From the NCBI RefSeq assembly GCF_000733475.1, contig NZ_JPFK01000009.1, positions 62,001 to 126,000 on the forward strand: DNA of 64,000 bases, in the 5' to 3' direction. Positions within the stretch are counted from its first letter, which is position 1; each line of letters opens with the position of its first letter. The translations under genes were made by a program, and so were the position numbers. Of this stretch, positions 9,291-62,450 are shown one piece after another. A model generated the notes under the pieces. That model worked only from the letters and a program-made list of their open reading frames with translations, did not search any database and was not told the origin of the DNA. The DNA is from Mangrovimonas yunxiaonensis. Its GTDB lineage: Bacteria; Bacteroidota; Bacteroidia; Flavobacteriales; Flavobacteriaceae.

Positions 9291-10178
9291 TTACCCGCCA
9301 AAGCGCTTTGGTGGCGGTAACGGAATGCGTTCGGTTTCGTTTGGTACCGGTGGGAAGCTGTTGTTTGTCCAGGCTTCTTTTGCACGTGCTATTAGGCTTT
9401 TATCCGAAGCCACAAAATTCCACTCTATAAAACGCGTTTCGGGAAAGGCTTCTCCGCCAAAAATATAAACGGTGGTATTTGCAGCAAGTTCAAACGCACA
9501 TAAGGTGCTGTCTTTTGCTACCAGTAGCTGCTTTGCGCCATAAGTATGTCCGTCGCTACTAATGTGTCCTTCCAAAATATACAGGGCACTTTCGCCAAAC
9601 AAATGCTGTCCAATCGTTACCGTTTGGGTGGTTTTTGACTTAACCTCAATAAAATATAACGGACTATACACTGGCACAGGCGATTGCTTGCCAAAAGCCT
9701 TTCCTGCAATAAGTTTAAACTGCACGCCATTGTCTTCCCAACTGGGGATTTCATCTGCCTCCACATGTGTAAAACTTGGCTCGCATTGCTCCTTTTCTAC
9801 CGGTAAAGCCACCCAAATTTGCAACCCATGTAGCGTTTTTTCTGAATGTCGTAAACGTTCTGGCGTTCTTTCGGTATGAACAACGCCTTTACCTGCGGTC
9901 ATCCAGTTTACGGCTCCCGGCGTAATCTCAACAGCGGTTCCTAAGCTATCGCGATGCATAATGGCGCCTTCAAATAAAAAAGTAAGCGTCGATAGGCCAA
10001 TATGCGGATGCATGGCCACATCTAAATTATCCTGAGCGCCCAAATGTGCTGGCCCCATGTGATCGATAAAAATAAACGGTCCTACCATGCGTTTTTGCCG
10101 GAAGGGCAATAAGCGCCCTACCAGAAAATTTCCAATGTTGGCTGCACGTTCTTCTATAATCAGTTTTGTGTTCGACAT
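9291..10178 (-). CDS. Pirin-family protein
   Basis: The 295-residue bicupin carries the pirin metal site. HPHIG supplies two His, and GVVHTE supplies His and Glu, spaced as in characterised pirins. Members of the family bind Fe or Ni; some act as quercetin dioxygenases and others as redox-linked regulators, so the reaction here is unknown. It is 3 bp downstream of a GNAT gene and precedes the decayed channel gene. The two pirins in this island are divergent paralogues (FEGAIMHRDSLG here, YKGRVEHTDSAG in the other). Confidence 0.9.
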   Translation of the reverse strand: MSNTKLIIEERAANIGNFLVGRLLPFRQKRMVGPFIFIDHMGPAHLGAQDNLDVAMHPHIGLSTLTFLFEGAIMHRDSLGTAVEITPGAVNWMTAGKGVVHTERTPERLRHSEKTLHGLQIWVALPVEKEQCEPSFTHVEADEIPSWEDNGVQFKLIAGKAFGKQSPVPVYSPLYFIEVKSKTTQTVTIGQHLFGESALYILEGHISSDGHTYGAKQLLVAKDSTLCAFELAANTTVYIFGGEAFPETRFIEWNFVASDKSLIARAKEAWTNNSFPPVPNETERIPLPPPKRFGG

Positions 10179-10181
10179 TTG

Positions 10182-10499
10182 CTATAAGTTATCATACCCC
10201 TTAAAACGCTTATCTACAAGACGTTTCCATTCGGGATGTTTTTTTATGTAGGCAAACACATAAGGACAAATGGGCAGTAACGTGTTATGGTGCGCCTCTA
10301 GGTGGTTTAATGTTTTTTCTACCAAAGCAGCGGCAACGCCCCTACCGCCTATGGCTTCGGGAACTTCTGTATGTACCAAGGCCGTTTGCTGTGCCGTTTC
10401 TTTATACTCTATAAAGGCATCATGCCCATCTATAGTTATTTGAAACCGCTTTTTATCTTGGTTTTTCACCAATGGTATGTGTTCAAATTCTGATCTCAT
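10182..10499 (-). CDS. Small GNAT-like N-acetyltransferase (NATD1/YjdJ type)
   Basis: The 105-residue protein matches the short GNAT-like family. It has a beta strand region (FIEYKETAQQTALVHTEVPEA), the acetyl-CoA loop GGRGVAAALVEKTLNHLEAH, and the C-terminal CPYVFAYIKKHPEW signature typical of this group. The substrate is unknown. It sits 3 bp upstream of a pirin gene and just after the terminator of the other pirin gene. Confidence 0.85.
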   Translation of the reverse strand: MRSEFEHIPLVKNQDKKRFQITIDGHDAFIEYKETAQQTALVHTEVPEAIGGRGVAAALVEKTLNHLEAHHNTLLPICPYVFAYIKKHPEWKRLVDKRFKGYDNL

Positions 10500-10511
10500 T
10501 TTTTAAAGATA

Positions 10512-10547
10512 TAAAAAAAGCAGCTTGTAAACACAAACTGCTTTTAA
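10512..10547 (-). terminator. Terminator after the second pirin gene
   Basis: On the minus strand AAAAGCAG is followed by TTTGT, a loop, ACAAG and CTGCTTTTTTT, so the stem is about 12 bp with a T run. It separates the 11795-10556 operon from the GNAT-pirin pair. Confidence 0.75.
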
Positions 10548-10555
10548 GGTTTAGT

Positions 10556-11431
10556 TTAGTCTTCCAAATACCCAAACTTTCCGGTGTTAAAATCCTGAAA
10601 AGCCTGTATAAGCTCATCTTGGGTGTTCATAACAAAAGGGCCATGTGCTGCAATGGGCTCGTTTAAAGGCGCACCACTCAATACCAGAACAACGGTATCT
10701 TCCAGAGCGTCTAAGGTAAAGGTATCGCCATCATTATTTGCAAACAGTGCAAAGTGGTCTTGTAAAACAACGGTTGTTTCGTTTACCTTCACGCTACCCT
10801 CAACAGGTAATATGGCCGTGGTATAATGCGCTGGAAACGTCAAGGGCATTTTTGCACCTTTTTTCAGCCTAACATTAAACATGTTTACTGGAGAAAATGT
10901 TGATGCTGGCCCTTTATTTCCTTCATACGCACCAGCAATCACCTCTACCTCTCCTGCCCCATCGGGCAACGGAACTTTTGCCATTTCGGCATTTGCAATG
11001 GCCTGATATTTTGGCGGGCTCATTTTATCTTTTGCAGGAAGGTTTACCCACAATTGTACCATTTGAAATTCGCCTCCTGTTTTACTCCACTCGGTTTCGT
11101 GAAACTCTTTATGCAGCACCCCCGAAGCGGCAGTCATCCATTGCACATCACCTTCGCCAATAACCCCTCCACCACCAGCGCTATCGGTGTGTTCTACACG
11201 TCCTTTGTAGGCAATGGTTACGGTTTCAAATCCTCTATGCGGGTGCACACCTACGCCCTTGGGTACATGGGTTGGCGGAAAATGGTACTTAGAATTGTAA
11301 TCCAACATAATAAACGGATCCATACGTTGCATGGTTGAAGTGCCAGGAATGAAATTGTGCACTCTAAAACCATCCCCCACAAAATGAGGGGTTCCTGGTT
11401 GTACTATTTTTTCTATGTGTCTTGTTTTCAT
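10556..11431 (-). CDS. Pirin-family protein
   Basis: The 291-residue bicupin has HPHRGFETVT and GVLHKEFHE, which contain the three His and one Glu expected of the iron site. The C-terminal pirin_C half includes PINEPIAAHGPFVMNT-like features (LNEPIAAHGPFVMN). It lies 19 bp after the receiver-like gene and is preceded by a good Shine-Dalgarno-like AAAGAAAGGAT, unusual for this phylum. It is probably expressed from the Crp/Fnr-type promoter at 11903-11946. Confidence 0.9.
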   Translation of the reverse strand: MKTRHIEKIVQPGTPHFVGDGFRVHNFIPGTSTMQRMDPFIMLDYNSKYHFPPTHVPKGVGVHPHRGFETVTIAYKGRVEHTDSAGGGGVIGEGDVQWMTAASGVLHKEFHETEWSKTGGEFQMVQLWVNLPAKDKMSPPKYQAIANAEMAKVPLPDGAGEVEVIAGAYEGNKGPASTFSPVNMFNVRLKKGAKMPLTFPAHYTTAILPVEGSVKVNETTVVLQDHFALFANNDGDTFTLDALEDTVVLVLSGAPLNEPIAAHGPFVMNTQDELIQAFQDFNTGKFGYLED

Positions 11432-11450
11432 CGTTATATCCTTTCTTTTA

Positions 11451-11795
11451 TTAATGTAAACTGCATGCTAACTTTATGTCGAACGCATTATCTAAATAAC
11501 GACGCTGCATGCCGGGTTTGTTTTTAGACCAATAGGCGGTTTTTACTTCATCCGAAAGTATCCCTTCATCTTTATAGTCCAAAATAATGGCCTCTGGAGA
11601 TAGCATTGTAATTATTTTCTTCAGCTTATTGCTATCCGTTTCGTTGATGTTTTCTGAAATGGCCAACACATGATAGGTGTCTTGCTGAAATTTTTCGATG
11701 GCTGTCTCGACATTGTCAACTGTTAAAACCTGCCAGTTTAAAATGCTAGGCCGTGTTGCATGCTTTGTTACAACCAATGTTTTTAAATGTCTCAT
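11451..11795 (-). CDS. Degenerate receiver-like protein of unknown function
   Basis: The 114-residue protein has alternating strands and helices like a response-regulator receiver: LKTLVVTKHA, YHVLAISENI, AIILDYKDE. The acidic pocket expected at the end of the first strand and the phosphoacceptor Asp of the third strand are both missing. No DNA-binding domain follows. Family membership is inferred from the strand pattern alone. It is the first gene after a Crp/Fnr-type promoter and shares a transcript with a pirin gene. Its leader has the same AAAGAAAGGATWTA motif as the pirin leader. Confidence 0.5.
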   Translation of the reverse strand: MRHLKTLVVTKHATRPSILNWQVLTVDNVETAIEKFQQDTYHVLAISENINETDSNKLKKIITMLSPEAIILDYKDEGILSDEVKTAYWSKNKPGMQRRYLDNAFDIKLACSLH

Positions 11796-11902
11796 AATAA
11801 ATCCTTTCTTTTCTTCCCATTAAATGGGATTAATTACCCGATGTTTCCATCGATTTCCTATTTAAAACATCCCGCGGGTCGCCCCTACGTTTTATTTTAA
11901 TG

Positions 11903-11946
11903 TAAAATTACGGCAACAAAAAAAGGTGTGCATTGACCTATGGTAA
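11903..11946 (-). promoter_or_regulatory. Candidate Crp/Fnr-type site plus -7 box upstream of the receiver-like/pirin operon
   Basis: The imperfect site TTGACCTATGGTAA (11933-11946) has a full TTGAC half. On the minus strand a TAATTTTA box (11910-11903) resembles TAnnTTTG. The site centre is 33 bp from the box centre, identical to the arrangement upstream of the Old Yellow Enzyme operon. If transcription starts about 10 bp beyond the box, the site would be centred near -43. Confidence 0.5.
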
Positions 11947-11968
11947 GAATGGATTAGGTGCAATAAAA

Positions 11969-12568
11969 CTAATGGTTAGGTTTGAAATTCGCATCGGCTA
12001 GGGCCTTACGAACGCGGCTTAAACTCTCTGGCGTGATGCCCAAATACGAAGCGACCATCCATTGCGGAACACGCAGCAAAATATCGGGGTGCATGCTTAC
12101 AAAATCTAAATAGCGTGTTTTTGCCGATACGCCTAACAGCTGACTGATGCGCTTATACAAATGCCGAATATGGTTTTGCAACAACTGCTCGTTTTTTTCT
12201 CTAAAACCAGCATTCACCTGCGATACCTCGTTTATAAAATGTTCGTCTAGCATGACTACTAGGGTGTCCTCGACAGCATCGATATAGTAGGTAGATGGTT
12301 CTTGAAAAAACACACTTCCCCTATCGCTTACAATCCACCCTTCGGTAGCAAATTGCAAGATATTTTCTTTGCCTTCTTCGTTTAACGCATACATGCGCAA
12401 CAGGCCCTGTTCAACAAAAAAGAAATGCGAACAAATGGCGCCCTGTTTTAGTAAAAACTCGGTTTTGGGAATTGTTTTGGTTTGAATAAACGGCTGTATT
12501 AAAGCGTAATCGTCTTCCGATAGGCCGCCTTTTTCAATCAGGTGTTTTTTAAAGTTGGGTAAGCTCAT
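11969..12568 (-). CDS. Crp/Fnr-family transcriptional regulator
   Basis: The 199-residue protein has an N-terminal cyclic-nucleotide-binding-type barrel, a long dimer helix and a C-terminal winged helix. The recognition helix holds E181-S-L-S184-R185, the E-x-x-S-R pattern by which E. coli FNR reads TTGA. The usual cAMP-contacting Arg/Ser motif and the FNR cysteine cluster are not seen, so the signal is unknown. It is 29 bp downstream of a GNAT gene, and its stop codon is 22 bp from the candidate TTGACC site that precedes the pirin operon. It is paralogous to the regulator at 17696. Confidence 0.88.
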   Translation of the reverse strand: MSLPNFKKHLIEKGGLSEDDYALIQPFIQTKTIPKTEFLLKQGAICSHFFFVEQGLLRMYALNEEGKENILQFATEGWIVSDRGSVFFQEPSTYYIDAVEDTLVVMLDEHFINEVSQVNAGFREKNEQLLQNHIRHLYKRISQLLGVSAKTRYLDFVSMHPDILLRVPQWMVASYLGITPESLSRVRKALADANFKPNH

Positions 12569-14306: not shown

Positions 14307-14939
14307 TTATGCCAGCTCTGTAACAAACTGGTCCTTAGGGGTGCGTACCTTCTTCATGTTTACCAACCAATCGTTACTTTCGTCTCTATACCCTAAGGTT
14401 AATACCAAGGCAGACTTAAGTCCTTTTTGGTCTAGCTGTAAAAGTTGGTCCAATGCTTCGGCATCAAACCCTTCCATTGGGGTGGCATCGACCTTTTGTT
14501 CGGCTGCGGCAGCAATGGCCATTCCAAAGGCAATATAAGCCTGTTTTGCCGCATGGTTTGCGTGCCACGCGTCGCCTAGGGGTTCGTATAACCCCCATAA
14601 ACGGGCCTTGTAAGCATCCATAGTATCACTTGGTAAATTACGCGCTTGTAACGTCGCTTGAAATACGGTTTCTATACGCTCTAAGGTATAATTGTCCCAT
14701 GCCGCAAATACCAAGACGTGCGAGGCATCGACAATTTGGTTTTGATCGAAGGCAATGGGTTTTATTTTTTCCTGAAGTTCTTTATTTGTAATTACAAAAA
14801 CTTCATATGGTTGAAGCCCTGACGATGACGGTGCCAAACGTGCAGCTTCTAAAATGTAATCTATTTTTTCTTGCGGAACGGTCTTTCCGTTCATGGCTTT
14901 AACGGCATAACGCCACTGTAAATCATTAATTAAACTCAT
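14307..14939 (-). CDS. NAD(P)H-dependent nitroreductase-family oxidoreductase
   Basis: The 210-residue flavoprotein begins WRYAVKAMNGKTVPQEKIDYILEAARLAPSSSGLQPYEV, the FMN-binding start of the nitroreductase fold. It continues with AAEQKVDATPMEGFD and LGYRDES-like loops near the C-terminus (LVLTLGYRDESNDW). Such enzymes reduce nitro groups and quinones with NAD(P)H. It is the last gene of a four-gene operon, 4 bp after the alcohol dehydrogenase, and the members all suit detoxification of reactive electrophiles. Confidence 0.9.
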   Translation of the reverse strand: MSLINDLQWRYAVKAMNGKTVPQEKIDYILEAARLAPSSSGLQPYEVFVITNKELQEKIKPIAFDQNQIVDASHVLVFAAWDNYTLERIETVFQATLQARNLPSDTMDAYKARLWGLYEPLGDAWHANHAAKQAYIAFGMAIAAAAEQKVDATPMEGFDAEALDQLLQLDQKGLKSALVLTLGYRDESNDWLVNMKKVRTPKDQFVTELA

Positions 14940-14943
14940 ATTC

Positions 14944-15993
14944 TTATTTAAGGGATTTCATATCGATTACAAATCGATATTTAACATCAGATTTGACTAC
15001 TCTATCGTAAGCCGTATTAATGTCCTGCATATTAATCATTTCTATATCCGATACAATATTGTGCTCGCCACAGAAGTCTAGCATCTCTTGGGTTTCTTTA
15101 ATACCACCTATTAGCGAGCCTGCTATGCGCTTGCGCCCCATAATAATGCCGCCTCCGTGGAAGGGCTCTAACGGCTCGACCGCACCAACAATAACCATAG
15201 TCGCATCAATTTTAAGCAACTGGATGTAAGGGTCCATATTATGGCCTACAGGAATGGTATTCAATATAAAATCGAAACTCCCTGCATGTTTTACCATATC
15301 GTCTTGGTTTGTAGAGATTAACACTTCATGCGCACCCAAAGCTTTGGCATCGCTGCCTTTTTCTGGCGACGTGGTAATCATAACCACCTCGGCGCCTAAT
15401 GCATTGGCAAATTTTACGCCCATATGCCCTAGTCCGCCAAGACCTACAACCCCTACCTTATCGCCTTTTTTTACATTCCAATGGCGCAATGGCGACCATG
15501 TTGTAATACCGGCACATAATAGTGGTGCGGCGGCAGCGGGATCGATATTTTCTGGCACGCGAAGCACAAACTCCTGATCGACAACCACCATGGTGGAGTA
15601 ACCTCCATACGTTTTTTGTCCTGGTATGTGTGCATCGCTACTGTTGTAAGTAAAAGTAGCGCCATTTTCGCAAAACTGCTCCAAATCGTTTTTACAGGAG
15701 TTACAGGATTGACAGGAATCAACCATACATCCTACACCTACTAAATCCCCTTCTTTAAAGTTGCTAACATCTCCTCCAACACTTACTACGCGTCCTATAA
15801 TTTCGTGTCCAGGAACAACAGGGTATTTTGCGCCTCCCCATTCGTTTCTAGCAGTGTGAATATCACTATGGCAAACACCACAGTAAAGGATATCTATTTT
15901 AACATCGGTTTCTCCAACATCTCTACGTTTTATATCTAACGGTTCTAAAGCATTTTCTGGTGCCATAGATCCGTATGCTTTTATTGTTGTCAT
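14944..15993 (-). CDS. Zinc-dependent NAD(P) alcohol dehydrogenase (YahK / cinnamyl-alcohol type)
   Basis: The 349-residue MDR protein has the catalytic zinc ligands in CGVCHSD, GHE and a later Cys (PLLCAGITTW). The structural zinc cluster is CQSCNSCKNDLEQFC. The Rossmann motif is GVVGLGGLGHMGVKFA. It resembles broad-range aldehyde reductases that use NADPH. In the operon it follows OsmC by 10 bp and could reduce aldehydes that arise with peroxide or electrophile stress. Confidence 0.92.
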   Translation of the reverse strand: MTTIKAYGSMAPENALEPLDIKRRDVGETDVKIDILYCGVCHSDIHTARNEWGGAKYPVVPGHEIIGRVVSVGGDVSNFKEGDLVGVGCMVDSCQSCNSCKNDLEQFCENGATFTYNSSDAHIPGQKTYGGYSTMVVVDQEFVLRVPENIDPAAAAPLLCAGITTWSPLRHWNVKKGDKVGVVGLGGLGHMGVKFANALGAEVVMITTSPEKGSDAKALGAHEVLISTNQDDMVKHAGSFDFILNTIPVGHNMDPYIQLLKIDATMVIVGAVEPLEPFHGGGIIMGRKRIAGSLIGGIKETQEMLDFCGEHNIVSDIEMINMQDINTAYDRVVKSDVKYRFVIDMKSLK

Positions 15994-16003
15994 TGTATCT
16001 TGT

Positions 16004-16423
16004 TTATTGATTAAGATTAATATGTAACTTAATATCAGTATCTAAAAGTTTTGAGATTGGGCAAACGTTTTTAGCATTTGTAGCCACCTCTTTAAACTTT
16101 TCTTCGCTTATACCAGGTACATCGGCTTGTAAATTCAGTTCTATTTGTACAATACTACCATCTTGAAAATTTACTGAGGAAGCAACATCTAATGTGTTTG
16201 GTGTTACACCTTCTTCTCCTAATAAAAAGCTTAATTGCATGGCAAAGCATCCTGCATGAGCTGCCCCTACAAGCTCTTCAGGGTTGGTGCCATCACCATC
16301 CTCAAATCGTGTATGAAACGAATAGCTTGTATTGTTTAAAACTTTACTATCGGTTGTTAAGGTACCGCTTCCTTCTTTTCCGGCTCCTTTCCATACTGCT
16401 TTTGCGTGCCTTGAAAATTTCAT
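16004..16423 (-). CDS. OsmC-family peroxiredoxin
   Basis: The 139-residue protein has both redox cysteines of the OsmC family, in HAGCFAMQLSF and NVCPISKLL, plus the N-terminal Arg region (HAKAVWKGAGKEGSG). OsmC/Ohr proteins reduce organic hydroperoxides with thiols or lipoyl partners. It lies 12 bp after the Old Yellow Enzyme gene. Confidence 0.92.
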   Translation of the reverse strand: MKFSRHAKAVWKGAGKEGSGTLTTDSKVLNNTSYSFHTRFEDGDGTNPEELVGAAHAGCFAMQLSFLLGEEGVTPNTLDVASSVNFQDGSIVQIELNLQADVPGISEEKFKEVATNAKNVCPISKLLDTDIKLHINLNQ

Positions 16424-16435
16424 AGTTGTGTGTGT

Positions 16436-17533
16436 TTAATTGGTTTTATTTAATTCTGCTTTTTTATAATCGGTATAGCCTTTTTCGCCTTGCGTGTAAA
16501 AGGTATCGTTATCCCATTTGGTTAGTGGAATACCATGCTGAAACTTTTCAACTAAGTCTGGATTAGATATAAATGGTTTACCAAAAGCTACCAAATCGGC
16601 TAAACCATCAGCTATAATTTTATTTCCAGATTCTTGAGTAAATCCAGCATTAATCATTAATGTACCATTATATAGTGGTCTAAAATGCTCTGCTATATTG
16701 GTTACAGCATGAGGCACATTAGAAACATCGGTAAACGGTTCAGATAAATGCACATACGCTAGATTGTAATTATTTAATCTTTTAATGATGTATTCGAAGG
16801 TTGGTATCGTTTCTTCATCAACGGTTATTCCAAATAACCCATGTAAAGAAGGATTAAATCTTACGCCAATTTTATCTTCTGGCACAACTTGCTTGACAGC
16901 CTCTAAAACCTCAAAAAAGAATCGACTTTTATTTTCGGTATTTCCACCATATTCATCTGTTCTTGTATTAGAACAATTACTAAAAAATTGATGAAATAAA
17001 TACCCATTTGATGAGTGAATTTCTACACCATCAAACCCAGCTTCCATGGCATTAGCTGCTGCATTTTTAAAATCGGCTACGGTTTGCTTAATATCCTCCT
17101 TTGTCATTTCACGAGGCGTTACAGTGTCTTTAAATCCGTTAGGGGTAAATGATTGTGCCTTAGGATTGATTGCTGATGGAGCTAATGGAAGTTCGCCATT
17201 ATGAAAATCGGGATGCGATATGCGGCCAACATGCCATAATTGAATATAGATTTTACCACCTTTGTCATGCACGCGTTGGGTAACGTTTTTCCAGCCTTCA
17301 ACTTGAGCTTTACTGTGTATTCCAGGTGTAAAAATGTAACCAACAGCCTGTTTAGAAACTTGCGAACCTTCTGTAATAATTAGTCCTGCTGATGCTCTTT
17401 GCTCATAATACAACGCATGCATTTCTACTGGTTTTCTTTGCTCGTTATCGGCACGACTTCTCGTCATAGGCGCCATAACAATTCGGTTTTTTAGGGCTAG
17501 TTTGTGATAAGGTTTTAATAGTGATTGTGACAT
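16436..17533 (-). CDS. Alkene reductase of the Old Yellow Enzyme family (NemA-like)
   Basis: From the ATG at 17533 the protein has 365 residues, the family length. The frame is open 41 residues further, but that extension has no homology and covers the promoter. It has the FMN barrel start LKNRIVMAPMTRSRA, the substrate His pair in QLWHVGRISHP, EAGFDGVEIHSSNGYLFHQF and the flavin-phosphate region INAGFTQESGNKI. OYEs reduce alpha,beta-unsaturated carbonyls and nitrate esters with NAD(P)H. It leads the operon and lies downstream of a Crp/Fnr-type site. Confidence 0.92.
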   Translation of the reverse strand: MSQSLLKPYHKLALKNRIVMAPMTRSRADNEQRKPVEMHALYYEQRASAGLIITEGSQVSKQAVGYIFTPGIHSKAQVEGWKNVTQRVHDKGGKIYIQLWHVGRISHPDFHNGELPLAPSAINPKAQSFTPNGFKDTVTPREMTKEDIKQTVADFKNAAANAMEAGFDGVEIHSSNGYLFHQFFSNCSNTRTDEYGGNTENKSRFFFEVLEAVKQVVPEDKIGVRFNPSLHGLFGITVDEETIPTFEYIIKRLNNYNLAYVHLSEPFTDVSNVPHAVTNIAEHFRPLYNGTLMINAGFTQESGNKIIADGLADLVAFGKPFISNPDLVEKFQHGIPLTKWDNDTFYTQGEKGYTDYKKAELNKTN

Positions 17534-17640
17534 TAGTTTAATTTTATGCTTAGGGATTTTAATTGTCTTTAAGATACTACATTTAGCCATTACTAAAACA
17601 TCTTTTAGCTGTCTTTTCATTGTACCAAGACAATGGTATA

Positions 17641-17684
17641 CAAAAATAAGGGACATAAATTAGAATATAATTGACCTAAATCAA
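17641..17684 (-). promoter_or_regulatory. Candidate Crp/Fnr-type site plus -7 box upstream of the OYE operon
   Basis: TTGACCTAAATCAA (17671-17684) fits TTGAY-N4-ATCAA with both half-sites. On the minus strand TATTTTTG (17648-17641) is an exact TAnnTTTG box. The centres are 33 bp apart, as upstream of the pirin operon. The site lies 11 bp beyond the stop codon of the adjacent Crp/Fnr gene and about 140 bp before the OYE start. Confidence 0.65.
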
Positions 17685-17695
17685 TTCACAAAATT

Positions 17696-18271
17696 TTAAC
17701 CTTTAAGTTGCCTGCGCACCCTACTCAGGCTTTCGGCAGACATTCCCAAATAGTTGGCTATGTAATAATTAGGCACCCTATCTTGAATGGTAGGGTAAAG
17801 TTCGCAAAACTCCTGATAACGCGCTTTTGCTGAGTTATGTAAGGTAGACAAAATACGCTTTCGCTGGGCAACAAAGGCATTGGTAACCAGAACACGGAAG
17901 TAACGTTCAAAAATAGGTGCTTCAATTAAAAGTTGATTAAAGTGTTTTTTACTTAGCGCAAATAAAGTCGCATCTTCTATAGCTTGAATATATAACTTGG
18001 ACGGAGTATTATTAAAATAAGCATCGAAATCGCCTATCCACCAGTCTTCAATAGCAAACTGTACAATGTGTTTATTGCCTTTGGTATCTAAATAATATGC
18101 AATTAAACACCCCTTTACAACAAAGTATTCGTTATGAATAAAGGTCTCTGGCTTTAATAAAAACGCCTTTTTTTGAATGTTAATAGGTGCTAACCTAGAG
18201 GTGAAGGCTTGTAGTTCCTCTGTCGAGGTTTTTACATAATTAGCTATATGCTTTTCAATGCTTTGATACAT
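17696..18271 (-). CDS. Crp/Fnr-family transcriptional regulator
   Basis: The 191-residue protein has a cupin-like sensor domain, a dimer helix and a winged helix. The recognition helix (NYLGMSAESLSRVRR) contains E180-x-x-S183-R184 and is almost the same as that of the regulator at 11969 (SYLGITPESLSRVRK). The sensor domain lacks the canonical cAMP-binding residues and any cysteine cluster, and has Trp residues in the phosphate-cassette region (EDWWIGDF). It is followed directly by the OYE operon, which it probably activates through the site at 17671-17684. Confidence 0.88.
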   Translation of the reverse strand: MYQSIEKHIANYVKTSTEELQAFTSRLAPINIQKKAFLLKPETFIHNEYFVVKGCLIAYYLDTKGNKHIVQFAIEDWWIGDFDAYFNNTPSKLYIQAIEDATLFALSKKHFNQLLIEAPIFERYFRVLVTNAFVAQRKRILSTLHNSAKARYQEFCELYPTIQDRVPNYYIANYLGMSAESLSRVRRQLKG

Positions 18272-18321
18272 GATTGTTTTTAAATACAGAAGTATTATCG
18301 TATAAGGTAAATATACATATT

Positions 18322-18354
18322 AAAAAAACGACGCATAGAAATACGTCGTTTTTT
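18322..18354 (-). terminator. Terminator of the M16 peptidase gene
   Basis: AAAAAACGACG and CGTCGTTTTTT flank a 10-nt loop, 21 bp after the M16 stop codon. Confidence 0.85.
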
Positions 18355-18375
18355 ACAGATTTTATTTTATTAGTG

Positions 18376-21210
18376 CTATTCTACTTCATTGCCGTGAATA
18401 TCTAATTCTACCATAGGCTTACCTAACTTTTTAACTTCCTGCCATTGCGATTCTTTATCCCCTACTACCACATAAAGCATGTCCTTTTCTTGTAAGTATT
18501 TATTAATCATGTTATGATAGTCGTTTAACGACATGGCTACCAATTCATTTTGATCTTGCTTTACAAAATCTATAGGTTTATTGTACTTACTAATATCTTG
18601 TAGCATGCCAAGTTTTGCGCCAAGACTTTCGAAAGCTCTCGTATTTCCTTTAAGGAGCTTGTCTTGGGTTATTTTTACTTCATCTGCTCCAAAATTACTA
18701 GCATAATTAGTTACCATATCTTGTATAATTTCTAAAGATGCCAAGGTAGCATTTGTTCTAACGCTGGAGTTAATGTAAAACGGCCCTACTTCTTTACTTT
18801 TTCGTACACCAGAGTAAGCGCCATAAGTATACCCTTTTTCTATACGCAATGTTTGAAATAGACGTCCGCTTGAACCACCACCTAAAATTTCGTTAGCAAA
18901 TGCTAAATTATTGGCCTCTGGATTGGTTTCCGACAAGGCCAATTTACCAACATATAATACCGATTGTTTAGCCCCTGGAACATTAACAAAATATACGGTG
19001 TTTGTTTTAGGTGTTTCTGGCAAACTATATTGTGGTTGTTCTGGTTGTGGTGTATTCCAATCGTTTAATATACTCGCTATATCCATGACTTGAGACTGGC
19101 TTAAATCGCCTGCTACGTGCAAGTTTGCGCCTTTTGGAGATAGATTACTGTAAAACGCTTTAAGATCATCTATTGTGATGCTTTTAACGGTTTCTAAGGT
19201 TCCTGAGGTTGGTACACCAAAGCCGTGATTGTTGCCATAAAGTAATTTTGCATAAACGTTATAAGCAATTCGCCTTGGGTTAGATTCGCTATCTTTTAAA
19301 CTAGTTTCTATGGCCTGCTTTAAACGCTTAAACTCTTTAGTATCCCAACGAGGTTCTAAAATAATTTCTTTAACCAAACGCATGGTTTCATTAAAATTTT
19401 TAGCCAAACAAGACCCTGAGATGTGCATGTCTTCTGAAGCTGTATACATGCTAATATTGGCGCCTAAAAGCCCAATAGCTTCTTCTAATTCGGCAGGTGT
19501 TTTATTGGCTGTTCCCTCCATCATAAGGTCGGTAAATAAGTTAGCGACACCAGATTTCCCTTCTGGATCCATTAAATGTCCTCCAGGAATGGTAATATCG
19601 AACTGTATTAAAGGCACCTCATTATTTTCAATACCATAAACGGTTAAGCCATTTTGTAAATTTCCTCGATAAACTTCTGGCGCTTCAAACAATGGTAACT
19701 CTCCAAAAGGGGGTTCGCTTCTATCGTATTTAGATGGTGTTTTTTCGTATTCGGCTTCTTCGCCTTGGCTAACTTCTTCACTCGCGACATCTTGTTTTAC
19801 TTCTTCAATCCATACTTCGGCTTTATCAGCATCTGTTACCGCCAATTCTAATTGTCCTTTAGGAACAACACTTGTCATAACATAATTTGCATTTTTTATA
19901 TACGTATTATACACGCGCATAATATCTTCTGATGTAACTGCTTGGGTAAGTTTTGCGGTTTGCGTAATATAACTAGGATCGCCATTAAACTCGTTGTCTT
20001 GAGCTAATTGAAAAGCCTTATTTAATACAGTACTTACACCGCGATATAGATTTGTTTCTAATTCGGCTTTAATACGTTTTAAGTCTTTTTCGCTAACGCC
20101 TTGTTCTTCAAAACGTGTTAATCCTTCATTTATAGCTAGTTTTACACTATCTAAATCGGTCCCAGCATTAGCGCGTACTCTAAACACAAACTCTCCTGCC
20201 AATTCGCTACTGCTTTGATAAGTGCTAACATCAGGCGTTAGTTTTTGCTCTTCAACAAGCACTTGATATAACGGTGCTTTTTTGCTGCCGCTTAATAAAT
20301 TACCAAGAATTTGCAAGGCATAAGTGTCTTTATGATACTCTTCTACAGTAGGGATTACCATACGCAATTCTGGCAGTTTTGCAAAGTCATCTTCAAAGTA
20401 TAATGATTTTGTTTTATTTAAAGTTACGGGCATGGGTTGTAATGGCTCGACATCTGGTCCTCTTCTAATTTCACCAAACCACTGCGCTACTTTTTGTTTT
20501 GTTTCGGCTACATCTATATCTCCTGCTATTACTAATGTCGCATTTGCAGCACCATAATATTGGTTGTAGAATTCCTTAACATCATCTATTGTAGCTGCCT
20601 GCAAATCTGGCAACTGCCCAATAACCGTCCAGTTATAAGGATGCCCTTCTGGATATAGATTTTTACGAATAATTTCATCGGTATAACCATAAGGTGCATT
20701 ATCTACACGTTGGCGTTTTTCATTTTTAACCACTTGTTTTTCTCTTTCTAGAGCTGCTTTAGTAACGGTGTTTATCATATAACCAAAACGATCGGAATCG
20801 ATCCACATAATTTTATCGAAAGCATCTTTTGGTACCACTTCGTAATATACAGTCCCATCGTTCCAGGTGCCTCCATTTCGGCTTCCTCCCCATTCTGGAA
20901 TCATTTTTCTATTGGCACCACGAGGCACATTTTCAGAATCGTTAAAACTCATGTGCTCAAAAAAGTGCGCAAATCCTGTTCGCCCAGGTTTTTCTCTATT
21001 AGACCCCACATGCATCATAGTAGCCACGGCTACAATAGGGTCGCTATGGTCTTGGTGTAAGATAACTTCTAGGCCATTGTCTAGAGTGAACTTTTCATAA
21101 TTAATTTTGAATTCTGTTGGTTTTACTCCCGTCACGTCTTTTTGTATTTTTTCTTTACATGAAACTAAAGATACAACAAGTAATACGAGCGATAATTTAA
21201 TGTATTTCAT
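18376..21210 (-). CDS. M16-family zinc metallopeptidase, two-domain lipoprotein
   Basis: The 944-residue protein has a lipobox (Cys 18) and two M16 halves. The first half carries the inverted zinc motif H82-F-F-E85-H86 in GFAHFFEHMSF, and a downstream Glu in REKQVVKNEKRQ. The second half, from about residue 500, has the M16_C-type ILGGGSSGRLFQTLRIEKGYTYGAYS but no zinc motif. This is the usual one-active, one-inactive pitrilysin-like pairing. It probably degrades peptides in the periplasm. It is monocistronic, with a terminator behind it. Confidence 0.93.
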   Translation of the reverse strand: MKYIKLSLVLLVVSLVSCKEKIQKDVTGVKPTEFKINYEKFTLDNGLEVILHQDHSDPIVAVATMMHVGSNREKPGRTGFAHFFEHMSFNDSENVPRGANRKMIPEWGGSRNGGTWNDGTVYYEVVPKDAFDKIMWIDSDRFGYMINTVTKAALEREKQVVKNEKRQRVDNAPYGYTDEIIRKNLYPEGHPYNWTVIGQLPDLQAATIDDVKEFYNQYYGAANATLVIAGDIDVAETKQKVAQWFGEIRRGPDVEPLQPMPVTLNKTKSLYFEDDFAKLPELRMVIPTVEEYHKDTYALQILGNLLSGSKKAPLYQVLVEEQKLTPDVSTYQSSSELAGEFVFRVRANAGTDLDSVKLAINEGLTRFEEQGVSEKDLKRIKAELETNLYRGVSTVLNKAFQLAQDNEFNGDPSYITQTAKLTQAVTSEDIMRVYNTYIKNANYVMTSVVPKGQLELAVTDADKAEVWIEEVKQDVASEEVSQGEEAEYEKTPSKYDRSEPPFGELPLFEAPEVYRGNLQNGLTVYGIENNEVPLIQFDITIPGGHLMDPEGKSGVANLFTDLMMEGTANKTPAELEEAIGLLGANISMYTASEDMHISGSCLAKNFNETMRLVKEIILEPRWDTKEFKRLKQAIETSLKDSESNPRRIAYNVYAKLLYGNNHGFGVPTSGTLETVKSITIDDLKAFYSNLSPKGANLHVAGDLSQSQVMDIASILNDWNTPQPEQPQYSLPETPKTNTVYFVNVPGAKQSVLYVGKLALSETNPEANNLAFANEILGGGSSGRLFQTLRIEKGYTYGAYSGVRKSKEVGPFYINSSVRTNATLASLEIIQDMVTNYASNFGADEVKITQDKLLKGNTRAFESLGAKLGMLQDISKYNKPIDFVKQDQNELVAMSLNDYHNMINKYLQEKDMLYVVVGDKESQWQEVKKLGKPMVELDIHGNEVE

Positions 21211-61592: not shown

Positions 61593-62450
61593 TTATGCTT
61601 TATTTTTCAAAATAGTCTGTGCTATCCCTTCAAAATCGGCATTACTGGGAACATGTTTAGATCCTTCCAATAAAATAACTTTTTCTAAAGAAGGAAAAAT
61701 TTCTTTAGTGCGTTTCATCATCTTTCTACCGGGAAACATCAAGTCCTTTTCGGCTGCAATAATAGTGATGGGTGTTTTTATATTTTTTGCTGTCTGTTTA
61801 GGAATTATTGGCAAGGGTGAAAAGTCCATATGACAATGCTGAAAAGTAGCTGACATAAACTGAAGCGCAAAAGCATCGTACTCCGAAAACAGGGCATCCA
61901 TAACCCGCTTGATATACTTTGGCTTATTGGTTTTTATAAACTTTTTTAAAGGGATGAACATTTTAATCAAACCCAGCAAGGGATTTCCGTTAACGATGTA
62001 AACAGGCGCTATTAAAAACACATGTTTGATGGGAGTTTCATTAAACTCCAATGTTTTTAAGCTAATCAAACCACCAAATGAAAAGCCAACCAAAGTGACC
62101 GCTTTAAGTCGTAACTTAATGATGATTTCGGTGAGCCATTTGCCATAATCCAATGACTTCATATCTAATCGGTTTTCGGCACTTTTATTGGGCTGCGCCA
62201 AAACATCTACCGCATACACGCAGTATTTGGTAGTGAGCCTGGAAAACGATTCCAATATGAGTGGCGCACAACCGCCTGTACCATGAATGAGCAGTAAAGG
62301 CGGATTCTGTTTATCGCCGGACACGATGATGTTGGTACTACCAAAGCGCGTTTCCAACTGTTGCTCGGAATAGGCTAGCTCTAGTTGTTCTAATTTTTGC
62401 TTATACAGCTTTAAAATGGTTTCTTTTCCTTCTTGTGATTTAAAAAACAT
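61593..62450 (-). CDS. Alpha/beta hydrolase
   Basis: The 285-residue protein has the oxyanion region LLLIHGTGGCAPLI, the nucleophile elbow GFSFGG, an Asp in AAEKDLMFPGRK and a His in LEGSKHVPS. It is soluble with no signal peptide. The substrate is unknown. It is on the same strand as the oxidoreductase at 62477, which lies upstream, so they may be co-transcribed. Confidence 0.88.
   Translation of the reverse strand: MFFKSQEGKETILKLYKQKLEQLELAYSEQQLETRFGSTNIIVSGDKQNPPLLLIHGTGGCAPLILESFSRLTTKYCVYAVDVLAQPNKSAENRLDMKSLDYGKWLTEIIIKLRLKAVTLVGFSFGGLISLKTLEFNETPIKHVFLIAPVYIVNGNPLLGLIKMFIPLKKFIKTNKPKYIKRVMDALFSEYDAFALQFMSATFQHCHMDFSPLPIIPKQTAKNIKTPITIIAAEKDLMFPGRKMMKRTKEIFPSLEKVILLEGSKHVPSNADFEGIAQTILKNKA

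Follow-up and report, generated by a model that had tools for sequence, protein, structure and literature searches.

The FNR box has the form TTGAT-N4-ATCAA and is found at class II promoters, and in FNR itself the E..SR residues read the TTGA letters. In Escherichia coli, reactive electrophiles are handled with the help of NemR and YqhC, and the nemA gene is under the control of the repressor NemR (PMC5297802). A centre at -41.5 has been reported for the dehalobox of CprK and for other Crp/Fnr promoters (PMC7062800). In addition, a start-site map of Flavobacterium psychrophilum placed the TAnnTTTG promoter element at -12 to -5 (PMC9723704). Among the open-access papers listed in our literature searches, none dealt with a local Crp/Fnr regulator from Flavobacteria whose site was known.

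Here, we computationally analysed a genome stretch of 64,000 nucleotides from Mangrovimonas yunxiaonensis (positions 62,001 to 126,000 of contig NZ_JPFK01000009.1), referred to below as the window. At one of its loci, a Crp/Fnr-family regulator, designated REG, was encoded directly upstream of an operon that begins with an old yellow enzyme (OYE) gene. We propose that REG is probably a local class II activator of this electrophile-detoxification operon and acts through a palindrome located between them.

Gene order and sequence elements of the locus

An earlier note on this DNA had described a near-perfect FNR-type palindrome and a TAnnTTTG box ahead of a four-gene redox operon. Both elements were present (Table 1), and Pfam identified the four genes as OYE, OsmC, zinc alcohol dehydrogenase (ADH) and nitroreductase. 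Since the operon was on the minus strand, the operator and the box were read from that strand as well. The resulting order was REG, 11 bp, the operator TTGATTTAGGTCAA, 22 bp, the -7 box TATTTTTG, a leader, OYE, OsmC, zinc ADH and nitroreductase. The distance of 33 bp given in the note was correct as a centre-to-centre measure, which corresponds to the operator-to-box gap of 22 bp. Among the four enzymes, OsmC was the only one that passed a curated NCBIfam cut-off.

Table 1. Coordinates of the features in the window
Feature	Position	Strand	Comment
CRP2 imperfect -7 box TAATTTTA	11903-11910	-	ahead of pirin operon
CRP2-associated site TTACCATAGGTCAA	11933-11946	-	gap 22 to imperfect box TAATTTTA, read by hand
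CRP2, Crp/Fnr-family regulator, helix ESLSR	11969-12568	-	same layout as REG
Nitroreductase	14307-14939	-	Pfam; best NCBIfam match oxygen-insensitive NAD(P)H nitroreductase, below cut-off
Zinc alcohol dehydrogenase	14944-15993	-	Pfam; best NCBIfam match aldehyde reductase Ahr, below cut-off
OsmC-subfamily peroxiredoxin	16004-16423	-	Pfam; TIGR03562 above cut-off
Old yellow enzyme (OYE)	16436-17533	-	Pfam; best NCBIfam match N-ethylmaleimide reductase, below cut-off
Predicted transcription start (+1)	17636	-	from the sequence, if TAnnTTTG spans -12 to -5, and PMC9723704
-7 box TATTTTTG	17641-17648	-	gap 22 to operator; position relative to start from PMC9723704
Operator TTGATTTAGGTCAA	17671-17684	-	11 bp past REG stop codon; predicted position -48 to -35, centre -41.5
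REG, 191-aa Crp/Fnr-family regulator, helix ESLSR	17696-18271	-	PF00027, predicted structure, profile alignment

The OYE gene was likely to start at 17533. Another start at 17656, taken from the open reading frame list, was not credible because it was located upstream of the -7 box and the corresponding extension met a stop codon in Mangrovimonas spongiae, as judged by eye. An imperfect palindrome (TTGTCTTGGTACAA, window positions 17620-17633, minus strand) was also seen just past the predicted transcription start, and a similar one was seen in the other two species sampled from the genus.

The pattern TTGAYN4RTCAA had two matches in the window against 0.30 expected (at least two in 3 of 100 shuffles), and the other match was at 15709-15722, inside the ADH gene. 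Genome-wide, 16 matches were found versus 11 for the reversed pattern. The palindrome by itself was unremarkable, being barely commoner than the reversed control. A genome search for the palindrome together with the box, as proposed in the earlier note, gave a single occurrence when TTRAYN4RTCAA was combined with an exact TAnnTTTG at a gap of 19-25 bp, and the reversed control gave none. A genome-wide REG regulon was not seen in this exact-box scan at gaps of 19-25 bp, and the boxes of the three other cassettes in the same genome were imperfect.

A Crp/Fnr-family regulator encoded next to the operator

The REG gene had been missed in the earlier note. It ended 11 bp before the operator and was read toward the operon. 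The only Pfam match of the protein was the cNMP-binding domain PF00027 (33.3 bits, cut-off 27.5), corresponding to an N-terminal beta roll of the cNMP-binding type; Pfam showed no helix-turn-helix family and no TetR or HxlR domain of the kind found in NemR or HxlR regulators. The NCBIfam matches to the YeiL, CRP and FNR models were far below the cut-off. A C-terminal helix-turn-helix was nevertheless found by a structure alignment with FNR over 187 residues and by a profile in which the recognition helix was aligned.

The AlphaFold2 model of REG (pLDDT 94.4) ended at the recognition helix. It was superimposed on A. fischeri FNR with Z 20.9 over 187 residues at 1.8 A and on a mycobacterial CRP with Z 21.0, so the fold alone cannot separate FNR from CRP. 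In the search with the family profile, the structure 3dn7 came first, followed by FNR ahead of CRP, with ESLSR of REG aligned to ETISR of FNR. The operator half-site was of the form TTGAY/RTCAA, and the TGTGA-type half-site of cAMP-CRP was not found in it. REG had cysteines only at positions 55 and 156 and lacked the N-terminal cysteine cluster for [4Fe-4S], therefore it was not an oxygen-sensing FNR. The closest named relative was M. spongiae, where REG was 89% identical.

Conservation of the site and its spacing

Relatives of REG were gathered by protein similarity only. Out of 199 genomes of the family, 124 matched at 1e-20 and 30 loci were taken from among the matches; a genome collection added 80 loci out of 197 REG relatives. 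These 110 loci contained 106 distinct regulators, with identical proteins counted once. Some regions were drawn from two sources and so entered as more than one locus, which was apparently the case for L002 and L031. In 27 of the distinct cases, a co-directional OYE gene was located no more than 1000 bp downstream.

A site followed by a -7-like box was present in all 27 distinct REG-OYE loci, with a gap of 22 bp in 21 of them and 23 bp in six. Thus, the motif was not lost in the examined relatives that keep the synteny, an absence that the earlier note had named as refuting its proposal. The box was an exact TAnnTTTG in 24 loci, and the start of the site ranged from 20 bp ahead of the REG stop codon to 26 bp past it. 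The proximal half-site was the best preserved part (RTCA in 27/27, RTCAA in 26/27), and the central TA was invariant. The full TTGAY-N4-RTCAA was found in 11 loci, while the rest had TTAAC, CTAAC, ATAAC or TTATC as the distal half. In one clade, where it was CTAAC or ATAAC, this degeneracy made the symmetry weak. Within the genus, all 14 operator letters were common to the three sampled species, and the 22-bp spacer was partly different. For each of the 27 loci, none of 100 shuffles reached the score of the real site.

A group designated clade B (L011, L035, L037, L041 and others, from Salegentibacter, Christiangramia and relatives) was seen by eye to carry two extra TTAAC repeats (CTTAAC..TTTAAC) before the site. 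They can possibly be considered as a second binding element.

Such conservation at a fixed spacing bears on whether the palindrome arose by chance or belongs to a terminator after the REG gene. The modest excess of the palindrome over its reversed control (16 versus 11) would fit a chance origin, but the presence of the site at 27 of 27 loci with its fixed spacing argues against it, and we rejected this explanation. A terminator or RNA structure was rejected as well because nothing terminator-like was found in 16400-18400 and RNA folding was no better than that of shuffled sequences (z 0.14). Altogether, chance or a terminator was extremely improbable. The sigma-70 model used in the scan of this region does not cover Bacteroidetes promoters.

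The spacing was also apparent when the starting point was the motif. With the gap left free between 7 and 37 bp in 149 genomes, a gap of 22 bp accounted for 30 of 59 matches and every other gap for at most five. The site-box pattern was matched in 92 of 397 genomes, versus 14 for the reversed control (hand count). We considered 30 pattern-search loci besides the one in the window. A Crp-type gene was present in the 3-kb stretch at 17 of the 25 loci with gap 22 and at none of the five with other gaps (p 0.009), and eight gap-22 loci had none. At 13 of the 25, the end of the Crp-type gene lay no more than 53 bp ahead of the first letter of the site or 9 bp past it, and REG-OYE loci made up three of the 13.

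The site follows the regulator gene

OYE orthologues were represented by 44 matches in 43 of the 199 genomes, and the best 30 were taken as loci. A REG-type gene was present within 1.5 kb upstream in 12 of these best 30, and all 12 had the site. By comparison, the site was absent from 17 of the 18 loci without a detected REG (Fisher p 1.5e-7); the site pattern had been modelled on sites linked to REG and was used in the same way for the two groups. The exception (L233) had a site 1364 bp upstream, and the locus as taken was too short on that side to reveal a regulator. In a wider stretch around this site, a Crp-type gene divided between two reading frames (L242:1017-1619) was found to end at the site; the division was either a mutation or an assembly error.

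Several loci had other genes between REG and OYE, namely DJ-1 in L008, an HbpS-like gene in L005 and, in L014, a 97-aa gene that matched nothing in Pfam. In all three, the site and the box remained directly after REG. Thus, the site tracked the regulator rather than OYE. Together, conservation, spacing and this tracking strongly supported the link between an FNR-type operator and the OYE operon that the earlier note had put forward. Separately, L112 and L123 appeared by eye to have the same two-gene target downstream of the site, with an adjoining Crp-type gene in L112 alone; therefore, the regulator may sometimes be located elsewhere.

The genome encoded seven proteins matching PF00027. Four of them were of the short type (REG, CRP2, L145 and L146), and these were scored; L143 and L148, which had other C-termini, were left out, and L142 likewise. 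Each of the four was followed by a palindrome-like site after its stop codon with a gap of 22 bp to a box, and REG alone had the exact -7 box. For L145 (ETLSR), the site after its own stop was TTGATTTAGATCAA and the box AATCTTTG, and for L146 (helix EFLSK) they were ATAAACTGGTTTAT and GAACTTTG. On the minus strand of the window (9291-12568), the CRP2 cassette was followed by a 114-aa gene, pirin, a GNAT protein and a second pirin. Judging by eye, a similar regulator also preceded a pirin-like operon in L133 and L134.

Since two other paralogues had similar helices and sites, cross-binding was possible. It might even be that the site at the OYE operon is mainly read by CRP2 or the L145 protein, which would make it part of a shared regulon instead of a REG site, as the similar helices and the site after the stop codon of L145 would allow. 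However, among OYE orthologues the site tracked REG, and a single copy of the motif in the genome had an exact box at near-correct spacing, so we regard a paralogue as a quite improbable main reader.

Proposed regulation of the operon

On the assumption that the TAnnTTTG box occupies -12 to -5, its place in F. psychrophilum, a gap of 22 bp would put the operator at -48 to -35 with the centre at -41.5, which is the position of a class II activator. According to the proposed mechanism, the palindrome would be the binding site of REG encoded directly upstream. A REG dimer would bind there and recognise the RTCAA half-site through its E180-S183-R184 helix, which is of the FNR type (E..SR). REG would be triggered from within the cytoplasm, probably by an electrophile, for example a quinone, enal or dicarbonyl, or by the ensuing redox change. 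Acting as a class II activator from -41.5, REG would recruit RNA polymerase, replacing the -33 contact, and thereby turn on OYE, OsmC, ADH and nitroreductase.

In the promoter model that we assume, the operator occupies the place of the -33 element. This location would also suit a repressor that blocks RNA polymerase at -48 to -35 and is released on electrophile stress. NemR, the repressor of E. coli nemA, offers a precedent for such behaviour (PMC5297802), and HxlR, TetR or MarR-type genes were found upstream of OYE in three relatives (L221, L217 and L237, out of the 18 loci without a detected REG). On the other hand, a repressor needs no fixed distance to the box, whereas the gap was always 22 or 23 bp at the 27 REG-OYE loci and peaked at 22 bp in two further spacing tests. 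Hence, repression by REG was unlikely, and activation was the preferred reading.

An electrophile would be the likely signal for REG, judging by the enzymes encoded by the operon, the HxlR, TetR or MarR-type genes near OYE and the parallel with NemR and YqhC. The stress circuit suggested in the earlier note, which would respond to quinone, methylglyoxal or peroxide, draws on the same enzyme content and on these neighbouring regulator genes. Cysteine sensing through Cys156 was considered and rejected: this residue was present in 25 of 27 OYE-linked regulators versus 13 of 79 others and may indicate clade membership instead of function. Cys55 was found in 27/27 and 73/79 of these regulators, respectively.

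A wider regulator-site-target layout

The layout was further analysed with 173 distinct regulators selected by homology, which were found by similarity to REG and were mutually related; three further paralogues from its own genome were included. Sixty further regulator places came from the 199-genome search and were taken in the listed order, with one at a contig start swapped for a later one. Loci L210 and L211 were left out of the analysis. The regulators were grouped by the last residue of the recognition helix. An RTCAA-type site was present downstream in 69 of 94 R-type regulators, 6 of 52 K-type regulators and 1 of 27 with another or unread residue. Upstream of the gene, the respective counts were 1/94, 0/52 and 0/27, and 400 bp further downstream there was no such site in any class of the 173 regulators. 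Without the 27 OYE-linked cases, the site was located just after the stop codon in 42 of 67 R-type regulators and was missing by the same score in 25. Among R-type regulators fetched later from the 199-genome search, it was found in 6 of 14. With an upstream site in a single R-type case, autoregulation at the regulator's own promoter was rejected. In one motif-selected locus (L136), a site was seen directly before a Crp-type gene.

A consensus-free test on 170 regulators counted palindromes with at least five of seven pairs. At gap 22 downstream, 22 were found with TAnnTTTG and 26 with a box that had another first letter, compared with 0 to 7 for each remaining downstream gap and 0 and 3, respectively, at gap 22 upstream. 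This peak was located just downstream of the gene, and there was none upstream or 400 bp on. Recognised clade B sites fail the strict symmetry of this test.

Palindromic R-type sites had RTCAA in 15 of 16 cases and TAnnTTTG also in 15 of 16. Palindromic K-type sites had TTCAA, TTCAT or TTTAT in 11 of 18 and ATTAA, ATTAT, GTTAT or CTTAT in the other seven, and the first letter of their -7 box was not T in 14 of 18. Regulators of the EFLSK type (e.g., L085, L097 and L146) mostly had GAnnTTTG and sometimes AAnnTTTG. The R-type regulator L086 (EFLSR) was an exception to the link between helix and operator. On the tree, the helix changed three times and the site two times, and with so few changes a relatedness-aware test cannot reach significance. 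Therefore, the correlation between helix and operator was suggestive.

Taken jointly, these data allow a broader proposal, which we consider about evenly balanced between true and false: that short wingless Bacteroidetes Crp/Fnr proteins make up a large class of self-contained cassettes, as yet undescribed, with a partly readable operator code. In each cassette, the regulator gene would be followed, at most about 50 bp from its stop codon, by an operator of its own, then after 22 bp by a -7 box and finally by the target operon. The last helix residue would set the letters, so that R reads RTCAA and K mostly TTCAW or TTTAT, and with the K type the TAnnTTTG box would become mostly GAnnTTTG. A good share of the targets (OYE, DJ-1, pirin, HbpS-like, nitroreductase) would deal with stress caused by electrophiles, quinones or flavonoids. 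Among the open-access papers listed in our searches, none described the REG-site pair or this wider cassette family.

If our reading of the locus is right, then the regulator, its site, the promoter position and the target can be read from the sequence here and in many relatives. REG would then be a candidate sensor of reactive electrophiles, and a class II activation system that suits the unusual Bacteroidetes promoter would be at hand. If confirmed, the wider cassette family and the operator code that goes with it would be of greater interest, and the targets of many orphan regulators would become readable from sequence.

Comparison with known systems

The REG circuit would fall within the Crp/Fnr class II kind. 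REG resembled FNR in its fold (Z 20.9, 187 residues), the E..SR helix, the TTGAY-N4-RTCAA site and the predicted centre at -41.5. Unlike FNR, it had no N-terminal cysteine cluster, ended at the recognition helix and apparently had one local target instead of a global regulon. The closest solved relative was 3dn7, a Crp-type protein of Cytophaga hutchinsonii (E 8e-63 by profile).

Several described systems shared individual features with REG. The CprK/RdhK regulators and their dehalobox TTAATacacATTAA were similar in that the regulator was encoded inside the target cluster and the site was a 14-bp 5-4-5 palindrome at -41.5 (PMC7062800, PMC3638464). The REG operator had the same 5-4-5 form and, with the predicted start site, the same centre; unlike the dehalogenation clusters, none of the four genes in the REG operon encoded a reductive dehalogenase, and its promoter had the Bacteroidetes -7 box. 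The motif of the Bacteroides Crp protein BT4338 (TATGTTnTAnAACATA) was likewise a Bacteroidetes Crp-family palindrome with an nTAn centre, but it was longer, had another half-site and served a putative global sugar regulon with possible autoregulation (PMC3878776).

CrpR1 of Riemerella anatipestifer was a Crp-type protein of a related group, comparable to REG in length with ORFs of 540 to 594 bp, and some of its subtypes also had the helix-turn-helix at the very end (PMC13277301). No binding site or target promoter was found in the text of that paper. Finally, NemR-nemA-gloA and YqhC-yqhD of E. coli were comparable to REG as local regulators located beside OYE or aldehyde reductase genes. In contrast to REG, NemR is a TetR-family and YqhC an AraC/XylS-family protein (PMC5297802).
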